The notes: generated by a model not told the origin, from the letters alone. A DNA stretch of 64,000 nt from Kiloniellaceae bacterium (GCA_021776175.1 JAJFGJ010000008.1:62001-126000); one strand, 5' to 3'. Shown: positions 51,610-62,775, counted from the first letter of the stretch. Made by a program: numbers and translations.

Positions 51610-53004
51610 TTAGTCCTTAGTCGGGCTCAAGCCCTCGAGCCAGGATTTATGCTCGACTACCGCTTGCTCCGGCGCCCGCACGTTCACGGTATCCAGCAAC
51701 AGGCCGCCGACCGCCAATATGCGGTACGAAGCCAGAAGCTCGTTGGTCTGCGCCGTGACCAGCTGGCCGCTGGAGACAAAGAGTTCGTTCTCGGCATCCA
51801 GGACGTCTAGCAGGGTGCGTTGCGCGACCTCGAATTGCTGTCGATACGCATCCCGGGTCTCGATATTGAATTGCACCGCGTCGCTCAGATCCTCGACCCG
51901 CTGCCGATTGGCCTCGTACGCGAACCAGGACTGGCGCATTTCCCGTTGCGACTCCAGGTAGGAGCGCATGCGCCGATTCTTGTTTTCGGCCACCCGCGCC
52001 AAGGCTTCCTGCCGGGCCGCGCGGTCGATGCCGCCCCTAAACAGGTTCCAGCGCAGGCGCAGCATGACCTGATTGTTGAACTCGTAGGTATTAATGCCGT
52101 CGCGGCCATCGTTATATTCGCTTTCCGCCTCCAAGGTGACGGCGGGGTAAAGCGGCGCTTCGGCCAAGGAAACCTCGGCCCCGGCGCTGCGCACATCGGC
52201 CTCGAAGATCTTGGTCGTCGGATTGTTGCTGCCGGCTAAGGAAACCGCGGTATCGAGATCGGGCGGCAGCACGCCTTGCGGGAATTCCACCGGCTCCAAG
52301 CTATCGGGGAATTGCCCGACTATACGCGTGAAACCCGCTTCCCCATCGCGCAGGTCGTTGAGGCTTTGGGTCAGCGTCGCGCGTGCGCGCGCCGCTCTGG
52401 CCTCGGTCTGTGCCACGTCGGCCCGGCTGCCGCCGCCGCCGGATTGGCGAAGGCGCACGGCATCGAGAATGGTGAGATGAACGTCGAGGTTGGTTTCGGC
52501 CAAGCGCACCAATTCGCGCTGGCGCACCACCTCAAGGTAGGCGCCGACGGCGTCGAGGGCCAGGAACTCGGCATTTTCCGCCACCCGGCGCGCCGCCGAT
52601 TCGACACGCGATTTCTCCCGTTCGATGGTGCTGTTTGCCTCGAAGCCGTCGAAGATCCGCTGCTGGAGCGTGATCGAGGCTTCTTCCCGGGTCAGGGTCC
52701 GGGATCCGTCGCTGTTGTTCACGTTGGCGCGGCTGGTGCGGTCGTTGGTCCGCTCCTTGCCGATGCCCGCCGCGGCATCGATCTGCGGCAACCATAGACC
52801 GCGGGCTTGCTTCAGTTCCTCGCTGACGGCTTCCCGGTTGCTGGCCACGATCCCAATGTCGGGATTGGTCGAAATCGCGTGATCGACGGATTCCGATAAT
52901 GACATGGCGTGGGCGGTCATCGCGCCAGGAAATGCGAACACCGACACTAGCAGCGCCGACCTAAAAAGGCCTGGCATCCCTGCTTTACCTAAGCGAAATA
53001 GCAT
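51610..53004 (-). CDS. TolC-family outer-membrane efflux/secretion protein
   Basis: About 464 residues from ATG 53004, which has an SD-like AGGGGGGG just upstream. A signal peptide (to about residue 36, MTAHA) is followed by two OEP repeats: LSESVDHAISTNPDIGIVASNREAVSEELKQARGLWLPQIDAAAGIG and LAGSNNPTTKIFEADVRSAGAEVSLAEAPLYPAVTLEAESEYN. The end has FEVAQRTLLDVLDAENELFVSSGQLVTAQ, typical of TolC/LapE. It should form the outer-membrane tunnel of the type I system encoded divergently at 53512-57758. Confidence 0.93.
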   Translation of the reverse strand: MLFRLGKAGMPGLFRSALLVSVFAFPGAMTAHAMSLSESVDHAISTNPDIGIVASNREAVSEELKQARGLWLPQIDAAAGIGKERTNDRTSRANVNNSDGSRTLTREEASITLQQRIFDGFEANSTIEREKSRVESAARRVAENAEFLALDAVGAYLEVVRQRELVRLAETNLDVHLTILDAVRLRQSGGGGSRADVAQTEARAARARATLTQSLNDLRDGEAGFTRIVGQFPDSLEPVEFPQGVLPPDLDTAVSLAGSNNPTTKIFEADVRSAGAEVSLAEAPLYPAVTLEAESEYNDGRDGINTYEFNNQVMLRLRWNLFRGGIDRAARQEALARVAENKNRRMRSYLESQREMRQSWFAYEANRQRVEDLSDAVQFNIETRDAYRQQFEVAQRTLLDVLDAENELFVSSGQLVTAQTNELLASYRILAVGGLLLDTVNVRAPEQAVVEHKSWLEGLSPTKD

Positions 53005-53511
53005 TTCCCCCCCCTCGTAGCTCATACGCCCTGCGGCAGTGGGCCTCTGATTTAAGCAAATCAGTTAGTTAACAGTGCTTATTACGCCGCTTAACCGTAG
53101 TTTGTCAACGAAATCGGACATGGATGAAATAATCAAAGAGAGCAAATAACTCGTTAATCGAAAGAAATTAGCCGGGTTCCAGGCCCGATTCAACACGTTT
53201 GAAAAGAAGTGCCAAACCGCGCCCGGCGCGAATCGCGAGGGACTGGCGCCGGCCCGGCGCCTAGCGGCAGCGGTCCGGCGAACTCACCCGAATCGGGTAC
53301 GGCGGCCATTTTACAATATCTTTACAATATCTTGGGTCCTTTGCCCAAGGCCCGCGCGGTGGGATAAATTAACCTATTCCCAAGGCAACTCGTATAATCG
53401 TGGTGCTTGATGTTAGTGTGACATTTCACGATATTTCGGCGGGCGCGGGCCCGCCAAACTAGGACCCGGGGCATTGGCCACGGGCCGGACGCGGGGGGCG
53501 GACGACTTGGC
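53005..53511. promoter_or_regulatory. Divergent promoter region of the secretion locus
   Basis: 507 bp between tolC and the ABC gene. The part next to tolC (about 53040-53200) is AT-rich. A tandem 11-mer TTTACAATATC occurs twice at about 53310-53331 and could be an operator. The part before the ABC start is GC-rich. No ORF was supported. Confidence 0.5.
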
Positions 53512-56139
53512 ATGACAGCCGGAGAAAGCAAATCGGAGGCCGCCAAGCGTGGCACGGGGGAGCGCCGCGGCGGGGCGGACCCGCGCGCGGAGCCCGCGAA
53601 TCCCAGCCAGGCGGCCGCGCCAAACCGCCCGAACCCAACCCACAGGCTCATTCAAGCGCTCGCCGCCGCCTCCCAACCGGACACGGAGTCGGGCACGGAT
53701 AAGGGCACGGACAAGAACATCGAGCGCGCCCGAGCCCCCCGGGCCGCCCCCGGCCCCGCGGAATCGCCCGCCCCCCGGGCGCCGGCGGTCGAAGCGCCCG
53801 CCCGCGAGGATCGGATTTCGAGCCGCGGCGCGGAGCCTAAAACCGCGAAACAGCCGGATTCTTCCGCGCCCCCGGCGCCAACAAATACGCCCCCGGCGCC
53901 TTCCCCGAAGCCCGCCGCCGCACCCCCGGCGCCAGCAAATGCGCCCCCGGCGGCGCCGCTGACCGCCGGCGAGGTCTTGGAAGAGACCCCCGATTGGCAA
54001 ATCCCTCCCTCCGCCGTCGATTTCATCGATCCGCTGCTATCCGCCTTGACGACTTTATCGGCGATCCTCCAGCGGCCTATCTCGGCGGAGGCGCTAAAGG
54101 CGGGCTTGCCGCACGATACCGCCACCTTCACGCCGGAACTGGCGATTCGCGCCGCCGAGCGCGCCGGCCTGAGCGCCCAGATCACGCGGCGCCCGCGCCT
54201 GACGAATATTCTCCCCGTGACCTTGCCCTGCATCCTGCTGCTCAAGGGCCAGAACGCCTGCGTCTTGCTGAGTTACCCCAAGGCGGGACAGGCGGAAGTG
54301 GCCATTTCCGAAGGCGGCGCCAACACCAAGACGATGCCGCTCAAGGAGCTGGAGGCGCAATACACCGGCTATGCCATTTTCGCCCGGCCGGAATACAAGT
54401 TCGACAAGCGCGCGTCGGATATTCGCCTATCGCAGCCGCGCGCCTGGTTCTGGGGCACCTTGGCGAAGTTCTGGCCGATTTACAGCCACGTTCTCCTCGC
54501 CTCGATCCTGATCAACTTGTTCGCCATCGCCAGCCCGCTTTTCATCATGAACGTCTACGACCGGGTGGTCCCCAACAACGCGCTGGAAACCCTTTGGGTA
54601 CTGGCGCTGGGGGTGGTCACCGTGTTCGTGTTCGAGTTCGTCATGAGAAACCTGCGCACCTATTTCGTCGATGTCGCGGGCAAGAACGCCGACGTCATCA
54701 TCGCCAGCCGGCTGCTGGAACAGCTTATGTCCATGAAGCTGGCGAGCAAGGGGCCCTCGACCGGCGCCATGGCGAATAACTTGCGCGAGTTCGAATCGCT
54801 GCGCGAATTCTTCACCTCCGGCACCTTGGTCGCGTTGGTGGATTTGCCTTTCGTATTCTTGTTCGTCGCCGTGATCTACCTGGTCGCGGGCCCGGTCGCC
54901 TTTGTCCCCCTGGCGGCGGTGCCGCTGGTCATTTTCGTTGGCGTGATCATGCAGTTCCCCCTGCGCAGCGTCATCGAAAAGACCCACCGCGAGCAATCGC
55001 AGAAGCACGCGCTTCTGGTCGAAACCATCGACGGCCTTGAAACCATCAAGGCAACAGCCGCCGAAGGCCGCGTGCAACGGTCGTGGGAGCGCTTCGTCGG
55101 GCTGACCGCCGAATCGTCCGGCAAGGCGCGCTTCCTGTCCGGCCTGGCGACCACCTTCGCGCAGGTTTCGATACAGCTTACCACCGTCGTCGTCGTGGTC
55201 TTTGGCGTCCACCTGATCGCGGCCGGCGAAATTACCATGGGGGCGCTGGTCGCCGCGACCATCCTGGCCGGGCGGTCCCTGGCTCCCTTGGGGTCCGTCG
55301 CCGCCATGTTGACGCGCCTGCAGCAATCGCGGGTCGCGCTGCGCTCTCTCGACGCCATCATGAAGTCCCCGGTCGAGCGCCCCGCCGACAAGACCTTCCT
55401 GCACCGGCCCCGGCTTGGCGGCGAGATTGAGGTCAAGGAGGTCAACTTCAGCTATCCCAATCAGGAAAGCCGGGCCTTGGACAATGTGTCCTTTATCATC
55501 AAGCCGGGAGAACGGGTCGGTATTCTCGGGCGCATCGGTTCGGGCAAGAGCACGATCGCACGCCTGCTGATGGGATTGTACGACCCGGAGGAGGGCTCGG
55601 TCCTGGCCGACGGCACGGATATCAGGCAGATCGATCCGGCCGATCTACGCCGCAACATCGGATACGTCTCGCAGGACAATTACCTGTTCTTCGGCACGGT
55701 ACGCGACAACATCGCCTTCGGCGCCCCGCATTTGGACGATCAATCGGTGCTGCGCGCGGCGGAAGTCGCCGGGGTGACGGACTTCATACGCACCCATCCC
55801 CACGGCCTGGACATGCAGGTCGGCGAGCGCGGCATGAGCCTTTCCGGCGGCCAGCGGCAGTCCATCGTGATCGCCCGCGCGCTGCTGCTCGACCCGCCCA
55901 TCGTGGTGCTGGACGAGCCGACCAGCAACATGGACAATTCCTCCGAGGCCATCTTCAAGCAACGCCTTGGCGACATCATGCGCGATAAGACCCTGGTGCT
56001 GATCACCCATCGCAGTTCCCTGTTAAGCCTGGTCGACCGCCTGATCATCTTCGACGGCGGCAAGGTCGTGGCGGACGGCCCCAAGGACCAGGTCCTGGCG
56101 GCGCTGAAACAGGGCCAGATCCGGTCGAACCGGGGTTAG
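53512..56139 (+). CDS. Type I secretion ABC transporter (permease/ATPase, LapB-like)
   Basis: An 875-residue exporter, about 150 longer than usual. Residues 1-160 are a Pro/Ala-rich disordered extension. Residues about 165-285 are a C39-peptidase-like domain with no catalytic Cys, as in RTX exporters. Six TM helices span about 315-590. The nucleotide-binding domain has Walker A GRIGSGKST (about 680), signature LSGGQRQSIVIARALLL, Walker B IVVLDEPTSNMD and H-loop ITHRSSLL. It exports RTX-type or adhesin proteins with the HlyD and TolC partners. The stop TAG coincides with the left edge of a MITE. Confidence 0.95.
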   Translation: MTAGESKSEAAKRGTGERRGGADPRAEPANPSQAAAPNRPNPTHRLIQALAAASQPDTESGTDKGTDKNIERARAPRAAPGPAESPAPRAPAVEAPAREDRISSRGAEPKTAKQPDSSAPPAPTNTPPAPSPKPAAAPPAPANAPPAAPLTAGEVLEETPDWQIPPSAVDFIDPLLSALTTLSAILQRPISAEALKAGLPHDTATFTPELAIRAAERAGLSAQITRRPRLTNILPVTLPCILLLKGQNACVLLSYPKAGQAEVAISEGGANTKTMPLKELEAQYTGYAIFARPEYKFDKRASDIRLSQPRAWFWGTLAKFWPIYSHVLLASILINLFAIASPLFIMNVYDRVVPNNALETLWVLALGVVTVFVFEFVMRNLRTYFVDVAGKNADVIIASRLLEQLMSMKLASKGPSTGAMANNLREFESLREFFTSGTLVALVDLPFVFLFVAVIYLVAGPVAFVPLAAVPLVIFVGVIMQFPLRSVIEKTHREQSQKHALLVETIDGLETIKATAAEGRVQRSWERFVGLTAESSGKARFLSGLATTFAQVSIQLTTVVVVVFGVHLIAAGEITMGALVAATILAGRSLAPLGSVAAMLTRLQQSRVALRSLDAIMKSPVERPADKTFLHRPRLGGEIEVKEVNFSYPNQESRALDNVSFIIKPGERVGILGRIGSGKSTIARLLMGLYDPEEGSVLADGTDIRQIDPADLRRNIGYVSQDNYLFFGTVRDNIAFGAPHLDDQSVLRAAEVAGVTDFIRTHPHGLDMQVGERGMSLSGGQRQSIVIARALLLDPPIVVLDEPTSNMDNSSEAIFKQRLGDIMRDKTLVLITHRSSLLSLVDRLIIFDGGKVVADGPKDQVLAALKQGQIRSNRG

Positions 56140-56432
56140 GGCCTGTGGACACTTAGGATGCCGTCGCGGTTGGGCCAAAATGACGCGAGGTTAGGAGCGA
56201 GGACGCAGGACATGCAGCGCATATTCAAGAACGAGCGACGCGGCCTCGCGTCTAAGGACGAGCGACGCGGCATCGCGTCATTTTGGCCCAATCCCGTTGG
56301 GACGGGTCGTATTATCCCACCCGCCGCGTCGCGAACGGCTTGTGGGGGGCCTGCCACACGGCGCCGCCCGCTCCTAACGGGTGGGATAATCCGATCCCGC
56401 CTCGGCGCCATCCTAAGTGTCCACAGGCCCTA
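56137..56432. mobile_element. MITE with IS630/Tc1-type features
   Basis: A 292-bp element (56139-56430) with about 22-bp perfect inverted ends (GGGCCTGTGGACACTTAGGA...), flanked by TA on both sides, as after IS630/Tc1-mariner insertion. Inside are further inverted pairs (GGGCCAAAATGACGCGA, TTATCCCACCCG) and a direct repeat ACGAGCGACGCGGC. No transposase. It separates the ABC and HlyD genes; without it the gap would be about 8 bp. Confidence 0.85.
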
Positions 56433-56438
56433 GAGCAC

Positions 56439-57758
56439 ATGTCCAGTCATCGAGAAGATCTTTTTTTCATGCCCGACGTGCACGCGGCGGCGCGCCGGCG
56501 CGGCCACCGTTTCGCCGGCATCTTGACGGTCATGACCTTCGTCTTCATTGGCGTGATGGGCGTTTGGGCGCACTACGCCATTTTGGACGAGGTGACCCGC
56601 GGCGAAGGCCGGGTCATCCCGTCCAGCAAAACCCAGGTCATCCAGAATCTCGAGGGCGGCATCTTGGCCGAAATCCTGGTTCGCGAGGGCGATGTCGTGC
56701 AGATAGGCGATATTCTGGTGCGAATCGACAATACCGCCGCCCAGGCCAGCTTCCGGGATCTTCAATCGCAACACTATACCCTACTCGCCACGGTCGAGCG
56801 CTTGGACGCCGAGCAGCAGGGCCGCGATATGAACATCAGCGCCGAGATGCGCGACAACGCCCCGATCGCGGTGGCCGATCAAGAATCCCTGTTCGATTTC
56901 CGGCGCCGCCAAATGCAGGCTCAGATCTCGGTCCTTGAGTCCCAGGCCACGCAGCGCAAGCAGGAAATCGCGGAAATGCGTAGCCGCAGCAAGCAGCTCA
57001 AACGCAGCCTCAATCTCGCGCTCGAGGAACGGGCGATCACCGCGCCGCTGGTTAGCAACGGCGTCATGCCGCGGGTGGAACTTATACGCATCGATCGTCA
57101 ACTCTCCGATCTGGAAGGCGAGATCAGCACCATCGGCCTATCGATTCCCCGGCTGCGCGCGGCGGCCAAGGAAGCCAAGCAGCGAATCGAGGAAGTCCAG
57201 CTTAGCGCCAAGAGCGAAATCACCAACGAGTTGAACCGGGCACGCGCCGAGTTGAAATCGGTCCGCGAAACCCTGTTCGCGGGCGCGGACCGGGTCACGC
57301 GGACCGAGGTCCGCTCGCCGGTTCACGGCACCATCAAGGATCTAAAGGTCACGACTCTCGGCGGCGTTATCCGCCCTGGAGAGGACATCCTGGAAATCGT
57401 GCCCCTGGACGACCGCCTGTTGATCGAGGCGCGTATCCGGCCAACCGACATCGCCTTTCTGAGTCCGGGCCAAACCGCCGTGATCAAGGTGGCAGCCTAC
57501 GACTTTTCCATCTATGGCGGCCTAAAGGCCAGCGTCGAGCAAATCAGTGCCGATACGATCAAGGACGAACAGGGCGAAAGCTTCTACCGGGTCTATCTGC
57601 GAACCGACCTAAATTCCATCACCCACCAAGGCGCCGAATTGCCGATCATTCCCGGCATGACCACGACGGTCGAGGTCCTGACCGGCAAGAAGTCGGTCCT
57701 GGACTATCTCCTGAAACCGATCCTCAAGGCCCGCGACCGCGCCCTTCGAGAGCGCTAA
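56439..57758 (+). CDS. HlyD-family type I secretion adaptor
   Basis: A 439-residue membrane-fusion protein from ATG 56439. A short cytoplasmic tail is followed by one TM helix (FAGILTVMTFVFIGVMGVWAHYAIL, about 27-51), a lipoyl half-motif (VIQNLEGGILAEILVREGDVVQIGDILVRI), a long coiled coil (about 110-290), the second lipoyl half (VRSPVHGTIKDLKVTTLGGVIRPGEDILEIVPLDDRLLIEARI) and a beta-barrel end. It links the ABC exporter to the TolC tunnel. The longer frame from 56283 reads through the MITE and was rejected. Confidence 0.94.
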   Translation: MSSHREDLFFMPDVHAAARRRGHRFAGILTVMTFVFIGVMGVWAHYAILDEVTRGEGRVIPSSKTQVIQNLEGGILAEILVREGDVVQIGDILVRIDNTAAQASFRDLQSQHYTLLATVERLDAEQQGRDMNISAEMRDNAPIAVADQESLFDFRRRQMQAQISVLESQATQRKQEIAEMRSRSKQLKRSLNLALEERAITAPLVSNGVMPRVELIRIDRQLSDLEGEISTIGLSIPRLRAAAKEAKQRIEEVQLSAKSEITNELNRARAELKSVRETLFAGADRVTRTEVRSPVHGTIKDLKVTTLGGVIRPGEDILEIVPLDDRLLIEARIRPTDIAFLSPGQTAVIKVAAYDFSIYGGLKASVEQISADTIKDEQGESFYRVYLRTDLNSITHQGAELPIIPGMTTTVEVLTGKKSVLDYLLKPILKARDRALRER

Positions 57759-57967: not shown

Positions 57968-58768
57968 GTGTTGTTCTGGCGCAAATCATCGGCTGTCTAT
58001 GCGGCCCTCATCTTGGGGCTCGCGATCTCCGGCGCCACGCCGGCGCGGGCGCAAACCCTGGGCGATCTGGCCCGCGCCAGCAAGCAGCACGCCGCGATTC
58101 CCGGCACGCCGGGGACGTCGCGCGCGGGGCCGTCGCGCGCGGGACCGGGCGGGGCGCTGTTCGGCACCTCGGAATTCCGCTCGGAATCTCTCAAGGGCCT
58201 GCCGCAGTGGACCCGCGTGCTGAAAGAGGGGCGCCGTGAGCAGACCCGCTTCGCGGCCTGTATCCGCGACGCCGCGCGCTGCGCCACGCCGACCCTGCGC
58301 AACTGGCGCAAGATCATCAAGGCGGCTGCAAACATGGACCGCGCCGGCAAGATCCGCGCGGTCAATGAGTTCTTCAACCTCTGGCCCTACAAGGAAGACA
58401 GCGAAATCTATGGCCGCAGCGAGTATTGGGCGACGCCGGGCGAGTTCATGGCCCGCTCGGGCGATTGCGAGGATTTCGCGATCGCGAAGTACTTCGCCTT
58501 GCGCCAACTCGGATTCAGCGAACGGGAATTGCGGGTTGTCATCCTGATGGACGAGATTCGCGGAATCGGCCACGCGGTACTGGCTATTTACGAATCGGAC
58601 GAGATCATTATTCTCGACAGTCTGTCCAATATGATTTTGCCGCACGCGCGCTATAAGCATTACCGTCCACAGTACTCGATGAGCGAGACCATCCGCTGGG
58701 CCCACGTCGGCGGTTACAAGAATAGGCCGGCGCCTGTCTACAAAGGCTTGGTCGCCCGCAAGAACTAA
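57968..58768 (+). CDS. LapG-like transglutaminase-type cysteine protease (BTLCP)
   Basis: A 266-residue protein with a signal peptide (to about 28, TPARA), so periplasmic. The catalytic triad is Cys 167 (RSGDCEDFAIAKY), His 202 (IRGIGHAVLAI) and Asp 217 (IIILDSLSN); the 35 and 15 residue spacing is close to that in Pseudomonas LapG. W/Y-rich WPYKEDSEIYGRSEYWATPGEFM precedes the Cys. LapG cuts the N-terminus of LapA-type adhesins, freeing them from the cell, unless held by c-di-GMP-bound LapD. The start is GTG (AACTCAGGTG). It lies between the secretion genes and the degenerate HD-GYP gene. Confidence 0.9.
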   Translation: MLFWRKSSAVYAALILGLAISGATPARAQTLGDLARASKQHAAIPGTPGTSRAGPSRAGPGGALFGTSEFRSESLKGLPQWTRVLKEGRREQTRFAACIRDAARCATPTLRNWRKIIKAAANMDRAGKIRAVNEFFNLWPYKEDSEIYGRSEYWATPGEFMARSGDCEDFAIAKYFALRQLGFSERELRVVILMDEIRGIGHAVLAIYESDEIIILDSLSNMILPHARYKHYRPQYSMSETIRWAHVGGYKNRPAPVYKGLVARKN

Positions 58769-58815
58769 GACCGAACTTAAGATCGAGGCCCTTAGGTATA
58801 ATTCGGAGTTAGACG

Positions 58816-60960
58816 ATGGACCCGGCGGTGGGAATGGAGGCTCCGGGCACGCCCAGCCCGATGTCATCTGAAATACCGGCCGCCGCGGCGCGCCCCGGCG
58901 GTCCCCGCCTCCTCTTGGCGCGCGCCGGCTGGGCTTTCGCGATCGTCGCGGCGCTGGCCGTCGCGGTTCCCGTTATCCTGATAAACCTGGAACGCGCCAG
59001 TGTCTTGGACGGCCTGGAGCGCCGGTTGGGAATCCTGGCCCAGGGCCGGGCCGCGGTCATGGAGACCTGGCTGGAGGGACTGACCCACCCGGTCGACAAG
59101 GTGGTCGATAGCGAGTTATTCCGGCTGTTCGCGACTGAGGTCGACTTGTCCCTGGCCGACATGTCCGACTTGGCGAGCGGCACCCGCGACGCCGGCGCGA
59201 GCGCCAAGCCGGCGGAAAACAAACGCGCGCGCGGGGATACGATCGACGTTCCCCTGACCGCGCAAATCCCCTTCATGTCCCAGGTCCTGACCGATTTCGC
59301 CAAAAGCGAGGGCTATAGCGCCGCCGCCTTGCTCAACCGCAAGGGCGTGGCCTACGTCAACAGCGCCGGGGCGCCCGAGATCAGCGACCGGCAGCGCGCC
59401 ATCGCCACCCAGACGCTCAAGAGCGGCGTCTTGCACTACGGGCCGCTTCGCGAAACTCCAGGCGGCTTGGCCCTCGACATTTTCGCCCCGGTGCTTAGCG
59501 CCCAAAGCGGAACCGACCGCGGCGCCCCGGTCGGGGTCGCGCTCCTGACCGCCCCGATCAACGAGCGCTTGAAGCAGCTTTTATCCCCGTCTCCCCTCAC
59601 CCAAGCGGGCGAGCGGCTTAGACTGGTTCAGTCCACGGCGGGCGCCGCCTACGAGGTCGCCCCGCGCGAAACGCCGAGCCTGCGGCCGCTGGACAACAAA
59701 GCCTGGGATGGGCCGGCGCCGGTTACCGCCTTCGCCAAACGCGACGGCATCGCGGGCGTGGAGGTGTACTCCCTCGGCGTCGCGGTAAGCGGCCCGGCGT
59801 GGCGCGTGGTCCAGGAAATCGACGCACTAGCCGTGAGCGAACGTCTGAGCGGTTTCATCGCCGTCACGGTCACGGTGGCCGTGCTCATGGTTCTGGCCAT
59901 AGCGGCGGTCTTCGGCGCCTTCTGGTGGCGCCTGGCCAACGAACACAGCACCGCGCTGGCGGATCAGTTCCGCCGCCTCGCCGCCCGGATCGAGGCCCAG
60001 AAACGCCTGCTCGACAGCATCAACAACACCATCACCGACCACATCGGGCTGAAGTCCCTGGACGGCACCTACCGCTATGTGAACCCCGCCTTCGCCCGCA
60101 CCATCGGCAAGGACGTGGAAAGCGCGGTCGGTTTGGACGACGCGGCCATTTTCGGAACCGGCACGGCGCAGCGCTTGAAGTCGTCGGACCGGCGCGCCCT
60201 GGCCTCCGGCGCGGCGGTGACGGTCGGCGAGGAAGTTTACCTGGGAGCCAAGGCGCACCATCTGCAAATCACCAAGGTCCCCTATCGCGACGATGCCGGT
60301 GTCTTTTCCGGGATCGTGTCGGTGACCCGCGACGTGACCGAACTGGTCGAGGAACAGAAAAAGCACGAGCGGGCGATTCGCCAAACCACCGCCGCCTTGG
60401 TGCGCGCGGTCGAATTGCGCGATCCTTACCTGGCCGGGCATTCGCGCCGCGTCGCCGGTTTCGCGGTCGCGGTCGCGCAGCGCCTGGGCGCGAGCCCCGA
60501 GGAAATCGCCACCGTCGAGATCGCCGCCGATCTATCGCAAATCGGTAAGCTGGGGGTGCCGCGCGAATTGCTGAACAAGCCCGGCCGCCTGACCCCGGCG
60601 CAAATTAAAAAGATGCAAGGCCACCTAAGCCACGCGGAGGAGGTCCTGCGCGATATCGATTTCAATCTGCCGGTGCTGGAAACCATCATGGCCATGCACG
60701 AACGCCTGGACGGCAAGGGCTATCCCCAAGGTCTGTCCGGCGGGGAAATTTCCCTCGCCGCCAGGATCCTGGGGGCCTGCGATGTCTTCTGCGCCCGCCT
60801 GGAGCCGCGCTCCTACCGCCGCGGAATTTCGCTCGAAGCGGCCATGGAGATTCTGGAGAGCAACGCCGAACGCTACGACCCCAAGGTCATCGCGGCCCTG
60901 CGCGAAGCCGCGCAATCCGTCGCCGGCGAAAAACTGCTGGCCGACCTCGGCGCGGCTTAG
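58816..60960 (+). CDS. Membrane PAS/HD-GYP protein with degenerate catalytic site (LapD-like role proposed)
   Basis: A 714-residue protein. TM1 at about 35-58, a periplasmic sensor domain of about 280 residues, TM2 at about 343-368, PAS at about 395-510, and an HD-GYP domain at about 525-705. The GYP loop is intact (HERLDGKGYPQGL, GYP at 635-637), as is GHSRRV (His 542). But the catalytic HD reads S574-Q575 (ADLSQIGKLGVP), HHE reads MHE, and ADVFDA reads CDVFCA. So it should bind but not cut c-di-GMP. It starts 47 bp after the LapG-like gene. By analogy to LapD (periplasmic domain plus dead c-di-GMP domain), it may hold the protease when c-di-GMP is high. The role is inferred. Confidence 0.85.
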   Translation: MDPAVGMEAPGTPSPMSSEIPAAAARPGGPRLLLARAGWAFAIVAALAVAVPVILINLERASVLDGLERRLGILAQGRAAVMETWLEGLTHPVDKVVDSELFRLFATEVDLSLADMSDLASGTRDAGASAKPAENKRARGDTIDVPLTAQIPFMSQVLTDFAKSEGYSAAALLNRKGVAYVNSAGAPEISDRQRAIATQTLKSGVLHYGPLRETPGGLALDIFAPVLSAQSGTDRGAPVGVALLTAPINERLKQLLSPSPLTQAGERLRLVQSTAGAAYEVAPRETPSLRPLDNKAWDGPAPVTAFAKRDGIAGVEVYSLGVAVSGPAWRVVQEIDALAVSERLSGFIAVTVTVAVLMVLAIAAVFGAFWWRLANEHSTALADQFRRLAARIEAQKRLLDSINNTITDHIGLKSLDGTYRYVNPAFARTIGKDVESAVGLDDAAIFGTGTAQRLKSSDRRALASGAAVTVGEEVYLGAKAHHLQITKVPYRDDAGVFSGIVSVTRDVTELVEEQKKHERAIRQTTAALVRAVELRDPYLAGHSRRVAGFAVAVAQRLGASPEEIATVEIAADLSQIGKLGVPRELLNKPGRLTPAQIKKMQGHLSHAEEVLRDIDFNLPVLETIMAMHERLDGKGYPQGLSGGEISLAARILGACDVFCARLEPRSYRRGISLEAAMEILESNAERYDPKVIAALREAAQSVAGEKLLADLGAA

Positions 60961-60988
60961 GGCGCCGAATAAGGGTATTCACGGCAAC

Positions 60989-61087
60989 CATCCTTCGAGA
61001 CGCCCACTTTCGCGGGCTCCTCAGGATGAGGAATATCAGTAACCTGACCTCATCCTGAGCCGGGCCGTAAGGCCCGTGTCGAAGGAT
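60989..61087. repeat. REP-like element related to the 22-bp unit
   Basis: CATCCTTCGAGACGCC...CTCAGGATGAGG followed by CCTCATCCTGAGCCGGGCC-GTAA-GGCCCGTGTCGAAGGAT. It is a palindromic relative of the units at 16592 and 17043. Confidence 0.65.
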
Positions 61088-61126
61088 TGGCGCTGTAATT
61101 CCCGAGTTTTTCAGCAGCCTGTTCGA

Positions 61127-61296: not shown

Positions 61297-61749
61297 TTAA
61301 GATAGTCCATGCAGTCCGTAGCTATCTGGTTGGGCGCCTGCGCTTGACCCATTGTATCTCGGCAACTGATCGGCAACATCGAACCACGGGATGCGTTCGC
61401 CATACATTACATGCCGGTCTGGAACGAATGCCGCAGGATCGTCGAACGTACTGACGTAAACTTCGATAATGGTATTGCCGCCCCAATCCCCCTCGTATGA
61501 AAGAGGTGTGCCGCATTCTTGGCAAAAGGTACGCCTCACGCCGGGGGATGAGTTGTACACTTTCCGCTCGCCACGGATGAACTGCACGGCACTTGCCTTA
61601 AAATTGACGAACAGCACCACGGGAGCGCCAGTCGTCCCCCGACAGGAAGCACAGTGGCAGTATGGGACATAAAGCGGCTCGCCCGTCGCTTCGTAGCGGA
61701 TTGCACCGCAATGACAGCCACCGTAGGTCTTCTTCGGTTCCTGACTCAT
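61297..61749 (-). CDS. GFA-family (glutathione-dependent formaldehyde-activating-like) zinc protein
   Basis: A 150-residue protein of the GFA/CENP-V fold. Zinc-binding Cys are in YGGCHCGAIRYEA (13, 15), PYCHCASCRG (about 31-36) and FCQECGTPL (about 76-79). The founding enzyme joins formaldehyde to glutathione, but most relatives are of unknown function. SD AAGGAGG precedes ATG 61749. It lies between two IS-like ends in a rearranged region and may be a recent arrival. Confidence 0.9.
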   Translation of the reverse strand: MSQEPKKTYGGCHCGAIRYEATGEPLYVPYCHCASCRGTTGAPVVLFVNFKASAVQFIRGERKVYNSSPGVRRTFCQECGTPLSYEGDWGGNTIIEVYVSTFDDPAAFVPDRHVMYGERIPWFDVADQLPRYNGSSAGAQPDSYGLHGLS

Positions 61750-62015
61750 GACGATCCTCCTTCGGCACAGGTTGCATTGCTTTAGCTATTCGAGGCATCT
61801 CCTCAACATTAGTCCAATATACACATCCTTGGGATGGGTGGCGTTTGGTCGTCAAATCAAGGTCTCTTAATAGCTGAGGCTGTTGAACAACTCGGATTTA
61901 GGCCAGCCTTTTGTGTCCGCTTATAGTAGGAGCGGGCATTTTTGGTGCCGCCGCCGGCCGCTTCGAGAGCGGTTTTGTGTTCTCAGGCTATTGGCTTCGG
62001 GTTTTTCGGCGTTGA
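61750..62015. other. Intergenic stretch with IS end
   Basis: 266 bp upstream of the GFA gene. GAGGCTGTTGAACAACTCGG at 61876-61895 looks like an IS1182/IS5-type terminal sequence, inverse to the one at 61101. No gene. Confidence 0.5.
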
Positions 62016-62156
62016 TCATACGGTTATTGGTATTGGCGGTGGTATGGCCGCGAGTTTTACCAGGCGTTTGAGGTTTTGAACGGTGGCAGCCAGCAGGAAC
62101 TCGTCGCGCGCTCCGGTCAGGCCGCGCAATCGGAGCCTTGTGAGGGCGAGGATGCG
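62016..62156 (-). pseudogene. Transposase C-terminal remnant
   Basis: The minus strand encodes 46 residues (RILALTRLRLRGLTGARDEFLLAATVQNLKRLVKLAAIPPPIPITV, stop at 62016), the typical end of a DDE transposase of the IS1182/IS5 kind. The frame is lost at 62154, where the duplicated HD-GYP fragment begins. With the terminal sequence at 61876 it forms the right end of a broken IS. Confidence 0.8.
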
Positions 62157-62639
62157 CAGCGCCTGGGCGCGAGCCCCGAGGAAATCGCCACCGTCGAGAT
62201 CGCCGCCGATCTATCGCAAATAGGTAAGCTGGGCGTGCCGCGCGAGTTGCTGAACAAACCCGGCCGCCTGACCCCGGCGCAAATTAAAAAGATGCAAGGC
62301 CACCTCAGCCACGCGGCGGAGGTCCTGCGCGATATCGATTTCAATCTGCCGGTGCTGGAAACCATCATGGCCATGCACGAACGCCTGGACGGCAAGGGCT
62401 ATCCCCAAGGTCTGTCCGGCGGGGAAATTTCCCTCGCCGCCAGGATACTGGGGGCGTGCGATGTCTTCTGCGCCCGCCTGGAGCCGCGCTCCTACCGCCG
62501 CGGAATTTCGCTCGAAGCGGCCATGGAAATTCTAGAGGGCAACGCCGAACGCTACGACCCCAAGGTCATCGCCGCCCTGCGCGAAGCCGCGCAATCCGTC
62601 GCCGGCGAAAAACTCCTGGCGGATATGGAAACGGCTTAG
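62076..62639 (+). pseudogene. Truncated duplicate of the degenerate HD-GYP domain
   Basis: From 62154 to 62639 the DNA repeats 60475-60960 without indels (offset 1679), encoding the C-terminal 161 residues of the PAS/HD-GYP protein. A few residues differ (AAEV for AEEV, EGNAE for ESNAE, DMETA for DLGAA). It keeps SQ in place of HD and the intact GYP. The first 26 codons of the open frame come from the antisense of the transposase remnant. Lacking its TM, periplasmic and PAS parts, it is probably non-functional, though a free cytoplasmic fragment could be made. Confidence 0.85.
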
Positions 62640-62775
62640 AACGTTTTCCGGTTATACGGACTAACGCTCTGAACGTCTTCCTTTTGGCGGATCGTGCCCG
62701 CTTTTCCCTCTACGGCGGACCTTGGCGCGGGGGCGCTGAAATTTCAGCTCCTGACCCATAACCGACGTCGGGCGT
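62640..62775. repeat. Duplicated non-coding block, copy 2
   Basis: Similar to 61127-61262 and directly joined to the end of the HD-GYP fragment, so the original duplicated unit was the gene end plus this block. Confidence 0.75.

Follow-up and report, generated by a model that had tools for sequence, protein, structure and literature searches.

The window, the whole 64,000-nucleotide stretch of Kiloniellaceae DNA analysed here, contains a T1SS block that ends in a protease–receptor gene pair. The block opens with a TolC/LapE-like outer-membrane channel (51610–53025, minus strand), an open reading frame divergent from the remaining genes, for which phmmer found orthologues in the same place in relatives. 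On the plus strand follow a LapB-like T1SS ABC transporter (53512–56139), assigned from its Pfam domains (ABC_tran, E = 5.9e-32; ABC_membrane, 5.1e-22) and conserved synteny and carrying a degenerate C39 domain that falls below the Peptidase_C39 cut-off, and a LapC/HlyD-like membrane fusion protein of 439 residues (56439–57758; HlyD_3, 8.2e-19). The start of the latter was set at the ATG at 56439 because its orthologues in relatives measure 439–449 residues, the longest open reading frame opening with a TTG at 56283. After a further 209 bp begins the gene of a DvhG/LapG-type periplasmic cysteine protease (57968–58768, plus strand), whose stop at 58768 lies 47 bp from the ATG at 58816 of a DvhD-type receptor (58816–60960, plus strand), a spacing already given correctly in the earlier note. 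Together the two genes make up the regulatory end of a locus for Lap-type adhesin export.

The protease (266 residues) is a member of the BTLCP family (C93), scoring 62.7 bits against Pfam PF06035 (E = 4.5e-17; cut-off 27) and matching the LapG structure 4u65 with E = 7e-20; on the stricter NCBIfam equivalog model for LapG it scores 98 bits, short of the cut-off of 320. Its N-terminus is a cleavable Sec-type signal peptide in which AxA precedes Q29, and its triad consists of C167 (GDCED), H202 (GHAVL) and D217 (LDSL), the GDCED calcium/active-site motif being intact. The LapG-like protease with a C-H-D triad recognised in the earlier note is thus confirmed.

The receptor comprises 714 residues. 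Hydropathy places TM helices at about 31–60 and 342–370, enclosing a periplasmic part of about 280 residues (58–337), and Pfam assigns PAS_4 to residues 408–511 (60010–60351, E = 4.3e-17) and HD_5 to residues 528–691 (1e-40) within a degenerate HD-GYP domain (60361–60954), in agreement with the two-TM layout with large periplasmic, PAS and HD-GYP domains described previously. The periplasmic domain (58987–59826), unrecognised by Pfam here, is assigned as dCache from its structural matches, its helix break and its conservation. When the sequence was compared with solved structures, the top matches were all three of the fragments crystallised from Desulfovibrio vulgaris DvhD: 9rc0 covers PAS/HD-GYP (E = 4e-77), 9rbz covers HD-GYP together with c-di-GMP (5e-51), and 9rc2 covers the periplasmic dCache domain (7e-27). 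AlphaFold2 modelling from 22 sequences of the window and the loci gave a mean pLDDT of 80; in a fold comparison with the PDB, the six best matches of the model were likewise DvhD structures, the TM-scores being 0.82–0.90 on their length and 0.87 between the dCache domain and 9rc2. The first dCache helix of the model is broken at residues 98–99 into segments 30–97 and 100–112, a break by which DvhD differs from KinD and SpdE, its nearest relatives among dCache domains (PMC13090378). Helix 100–112 corresponds to the α1′ segment, the predicted DvhG-contact helix in DvhD, and bears a conserved LFRLFAxE motif, the conservation of which in the scanned loci is partly built in, LFRLFA being one of the two peptide patterns of the relative scan; LFA.E or a close form occurs in six of nine co-directional loci found by HMM and is absent in the divergent type. 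Judged by its sequence, the receptor is a full-length homologue of DvhD.

Several further elements lie downstream of the receptor. Just past it, positions 60974–61103 hold imperfect inverted repeats (29-nt arms 72% complementary, 12-nt arms 100%) that resemble a mobile intergenic palindrome. A small protein encoded on the minus strand at 61297–61749 has CHCGAIRYEA and C-x2-C motifs like those of GFA-family (formaldehyde-activating) enzymes, and beyond it lies a partial duplicate of the C-terminal 161 codons of the HD-GYP domain (62154–62639, plus strand; 486 bp, 95.9% identical), in which 13 of 20 differences are synonymous and dN/dS is about 0.19. The duplicate extends into 62645–62758, 114 bp that are 88.6% identical to DNA from downstream of the receptor; the repeats are missing from it, and its flank at 61880–62153 is single-copy in the genome and resembles, by inspection only, a minus-strand transposase remnant. 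The duplicate is probably a pseudogene fragment outside the working system.

Within the HD-GYP domain of the receptor, identified by structure matches, alignment of relatives and residue comparison, the motifs read G541-H-S-R-R-V, S574-Q575-I-G-K (S574 and Q575 encoded at 60535–60540), M627-H628-E629, G635-Y-P and C655-D-V-F-C-A, so that all substitutions listed in the earlier note (SQ for HD, MHE for HHE, CDVFCA for ADVFDA) and both retained motifs (GYP, GHSRRV) are present. In PmGH numbering, the metal ligands H221, D222 and H276 are lost (S574, Q575 and M627), leaving the receptor without the full set of HD and HH ligands of active HD-GYP phosphodiesterases, while H189, H250, H277 and D305 are kept. 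H628 and D656 are still present, whereas both are lost in DvhD, in which these two metal positions are N. Alignment of the HD site shows HD in none of 66 DvhD-like relatives, the position reading SQ/AQ/CQ, MN/LN or similar, and for this reason the degenerate residues cannot be attributed to chance. Of the c-di-GMP contacts in DvhD, P567, L577, R650, Y652, R653, Y621 and Y523 are conserved (P582, L592, R665, Y667, R668, Y636 and Y538 in the window receptor) and K520 is R535; changed are M646 (R661), K582 (I597), E668 (N683) and R569 (E584). This pattern of lost, kept and changed residues makes catalysis very unlikely and c-di-GMP binding likely and leaves nucleotide preference uncertain, since with several contacts changed the affinity or preference could differ from that of DvhD.

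DvhD of D. vulgaris is a catalytically dead HD-GYP receptor that controls the LapG-like DvhG in cells (PMC13090378, Nat Commun, April 2026). Its HD reads SQ and its HH reads M and N, it showed no hydrolysis with any ion tried, and c-di-GMP occupies its canonical and bridging sites with a Kd of about 99 nM; c-di-GMP is its preferred ligand and the one it responds to in cells, 3'3'-cGAMP being bound more weakly, and in its crystal structures the PAS domain and stalk belong to the dimer axis (PMC13090378). PMC11784015 gives a summary of a 2024 reconstitution and proposes the names BfsD/BfsG. The statement in the earlier note that no system of such make-up had been described therefore did not survive, the D. 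vulgaris pair having been published in 2024–2026 (PMC13090378), while its central proposal, a dead HD-GYP domain serving as c-di-GMP receptor in place of LapD, is well supported by homology to DvhD. The PAS domain may be an added input, as the note also proposed. In PMC13090378 the main text mentions Desulfovibrionales only, and alphaproteobacterial members may already figure in the class-level distribution of its Fig. 9b.

With DvhD/DvhG (BfsD/BfsG; DVU1020/DVU1019 of D. vulgaris Hildenborough; PMC13090378, PMC11784015) the window locus shares the gene set (TolC, LapB-, LapC-, LapG- and DvhD-like), the domain order dCache-PAS-HD-GYP, SQ for HD and M for the first H of HH, the broken α1/α1′ helix of the model and, as candidates only in the window's genome, substrates with a retention domain and [T/A/P]AAG. 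It differs in its alphaproteobacterial host, in a receptor about 33% identical to the crystallised DvhD segments with the altered metal positions and nucleotide contacts given above, and in an operon that itself lacks an adhesin gene; in addition, DvhG of D. vulgaris is TM-anchored, whereas the window protease has a cleavable signal peptide, as most DvhG orthologues do. The LapD/LapG pair of the Pseudomonas fluorescens LapA system is similar in circuit logic, T1SS type, BTLCP protease and AA-cleavage motif in the adhesin, but Pfam finds neither LapD_MoxY_N nor HAMP-GGDEF-EAL in 58816–60960, where dCache-PAS-degenerate HD-GYP is found instead. Active HD-GYP phosphodiesterases (PmGH 4mcw, PA4781 4r8z, VcGAP3 5z7c) share the HD-GYP fold and GYP motif with the receptor, but not its loss of core metal ligands, and the tree separates them from DvhD-like proteins.

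The pairing of LapG-like and HD-GYP genes recurs in other genomes. A scan of GTDB genomes with periplasmic and PAS patterns from a four-row alignment, in which LapG was not a criterion, returned 35 true receptor relatives (L054–L088), and three further hits (L089–L091) were set aside as unrelated PAS proteins. The hosts include Kiloniella, Pelagibius, Kiloniellaceae and other alphaproteobacterial MAGs, Sneathiella, Desulfovibrionaceae, a Desulfobacteraceae MAG and other 'Deltaproteobacteria' MAGs. A LapG-type gene adjoins the receptor in all 33 relatives with enough contig, usually with LapB and LapC upstream. The nearest relatives are Kiloniellaceae MAGs (82–83% over full length), beside which the window receptor is placed in the tree and which make a Kiloniellaceae bacterium the most likely host, and all DvhD-like HD-GYP domains fall on one side of a 100/99 branch separating them from two active phosphodiesterases.

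Statements on the window's own genome rest on family searches of an assembly that is 89.65% complete. This genome encodes one LapG-type protease and one complete HD-GYP protein plus a fragment. An intact LapD elsewhere would have spoken against the reading of the earlier note; none was found, as a profile search detected no LapD_MoxY_N domain in the 89.65% complete genome and four EAL matches inspected did not qualify. The sole GGDEF-EAL protein (C30:234395-235624) is a PAS-GSDRF-EAL protein without TM or periplasmic domain, C30:26605 encodes a short-TM EAL protein, and the matches on C28 and C15 are weak and EAL-like only; an unseen LapD is possible in the incomplete genome. With six GGDEF motifs intact and an EAL protein that retains most of its catalytic residues, this host can make c-di-GMP and can probably degrade it.

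Three RTX proteins of this genome share a retention-like N-terminal domain followed by an AA motif and are likely candidates for DvhG substrates. The nearest candidate adhesin, about 7 kb downstream of the receptor and outside the window (C37:129880-131658), is a short, acidic-repeat-rich protein of 592 residues with TAAG at 113–116; a second (C29:72116-82705) has 3,529 residues and TAAA at 135–138, and the third (C30:113502-115355) has AAAA. The same domain with TAAG or PAAG occurs near dvhDG in relatives L055, L057 and L073, in the last of which, a Desulfobacteraceae MAG, it sits upstream of TolC. A 4,057-residue RTX/cadherin-repeat protein encoded outside the window (C17:34176-46349) was rejected, its N-terminal domain aligning poorly and having FecR instead of the AA motif; it is possibly a T1SS substrate outside DvhG control.

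With a whole-length TM-dCache-TM-PAS-HD-GYP architecture of DvhD type lacking metal ligands, a neighbouring BTLCP protease whose C-H-D triad and calcium motif are intact, and T1SS genes alongside (51610–57758), the window most probably holds an alphaproteobacterial (Kiloniellaceae) DvhDG (BfsDG) adhesin-release system, a reading to which we assign a probability of roughly 0.87. By homology, we infer that the properties of D. vulgaris DvhD/DvhG (binding, lack of hydrolysis and protease control) hold in this organism. Through the TolC/LapB/LapC T1SS a large RTX adhesin would reach the cell surface, with the retention domain at its N-terminus held in the periplasm, and DvhG, as a periplasmic Ca-dependent cysteine protease, would cut after that domain at [T/A/P]AA[G/A] and free the adhesin. 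DvhD would bind c-di-GMP via its catalytically dead HD-GYP domain, and the change so induced would travel by way of PAS/stalk and TM helices until it reached the dCache domain, which would restrain DvhG. Adhesin would thus be kept at high c-di-GMP and released at low c-di-GMP.

Other readings of the pair would assign the receptor a different role. It is improbable, though the least so among these, that DvhD is mainly an outside-in sensor in which DvhG activity is set by a ligand of the dCache or PAS domain rather than by c-di-GMP, the HD-GYP domain acting as dimerisation element or as binder of another nucleotide such as 3'3'-cGAMP. The dCache and PAS folds are both sensory, four of the c-di-GMP contacts of DvhD are changed in the window receptor, and DvhD itself binds 3'3'-cGAMP, albeit more weakly (PMC13090378); yet nearly all relatives of the window's type retain R665, Y667, R668, L592, P582 and Y636, and D. 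vulgaris DvhD has c-di-GMP as its preferred ligand, to which it also responds in cells (PMC13090378). A still slimmer chance attaches to an active phosphodiesterase that lowers c-di-GMP locally beside lapG, a role for which one might cite the strong HD_5 match and the presence of GYP, GHS, H603, H628, D656 and K578. The substitution of H221, D222 and H276 (PmGH) by S, Q and M argues against it, as do the lack of HD throughout the 66 relatives and the failure of DvhD, also S, Q and M, to hydrolyse with any metal tried (PMC13090378).

Least probable of all is a decayed or cargo locus that gene erosion has rendered non-functional. The truncated receptor copy at 62154–62639 and the imperfect repeats at 60974–61103 would fit such a history, but the reading frames of both full genes are intact, their catalytic or binding residues are conserved, and the T1SS block is complete and intact, matching that of cultured Kiloniella and Pelagibius species.

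Four models were run against a sample of 289 alphaproteobacterial genomes: PF06035 (LapG-type) was found in 80, the LapD periplasmic domain in five (two of the 80 PF06035 genomes) and a DvhD-like periplasmic domain in 48 (42 of the 80). Counting the 24 receptor-bearing genomes outside the model-building set, LapG presence was enriched with the receptor (18/24 vs 44/247; Fisher p = 1.5e-8, uncorrected for shared ancestry), and LapG lay next door in 13 of them. Neighbour analysis of 60 regions placed most alphaproteobacterial DvhD-like receptors in a second, "MN" clade (support 100/100), whose periplasmic domain occurs in 42 of the 289 genomes and whose loci (L126:1758-3962, L146:5812-7947, L155:2481-4601 and about 22 others) encode dCache-PAS-degenerate HD-GYP proteins with DvhD as best PDB match. 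These have MN or LN for HD, S for H250 and a hydrophobic residue for H276, and have usually lost GYP; they keep R650 and R653 in 25/25 and P567 and L577 in 24/25 (DvhD numbering), and their genes usually run divergently from that of an active LapG.

Both receptor types occur in one locus in L126, L127, L128 and Sneathiella L084, where the SQ type accompanies a LapG without the catalytic cysteine (GDSED, GGSRD) and the MN type a GDCED LapG. The cysteine-less proteins, beside SQ-type or SQ-derived DvhD, lie at L126:10661-11362, L127:10298-10978, L128:10134-10826 and about L084:9060-9822, some 5–6 kb from the active GDCED LapG in these four loci, and also at L072:4076-4804 (GDSED) and L130:5106-5885 (GDDED). 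They are likely pseudoproteases, and their pairing with such receptors, outside the window, is the most unexpected observation of this analysis. It is an even call whether, throughout the Alphaproteobacteria, LapG mainly partners with DvhD-like receptors rather than with LapD. These would fall into two clades: the SQ type of the window, located in the T1SS operon, and the MN type, which is more degenerate, has usually lost GYP, differs in its dCache surface and is usually divergent from an active LapG. On the same footing, the placement of SQ-type DvhD with cysteine-less LapG where genomes carry both would suggest a two-tier protease/pseudoprotease control of adhesin release. A limited literature search found no paper on the class-wide prevalence, MN subfamily or pseudoprotease pairing, and these may be new.

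Judged by sequence, dead-HD-GYP control of an adhesin, worked out in sulfate reducers, is also encountered, in the same gene order, in culturable marine Alphaproteobacteria (Kiloniella, Pelagibius). The survey suggests that DvhD-like receptors largely replace LapD in this class, and this offers a testable proposal for the regulation of the many LapG proteases that Alphaproteobacteria encode without a LapD.
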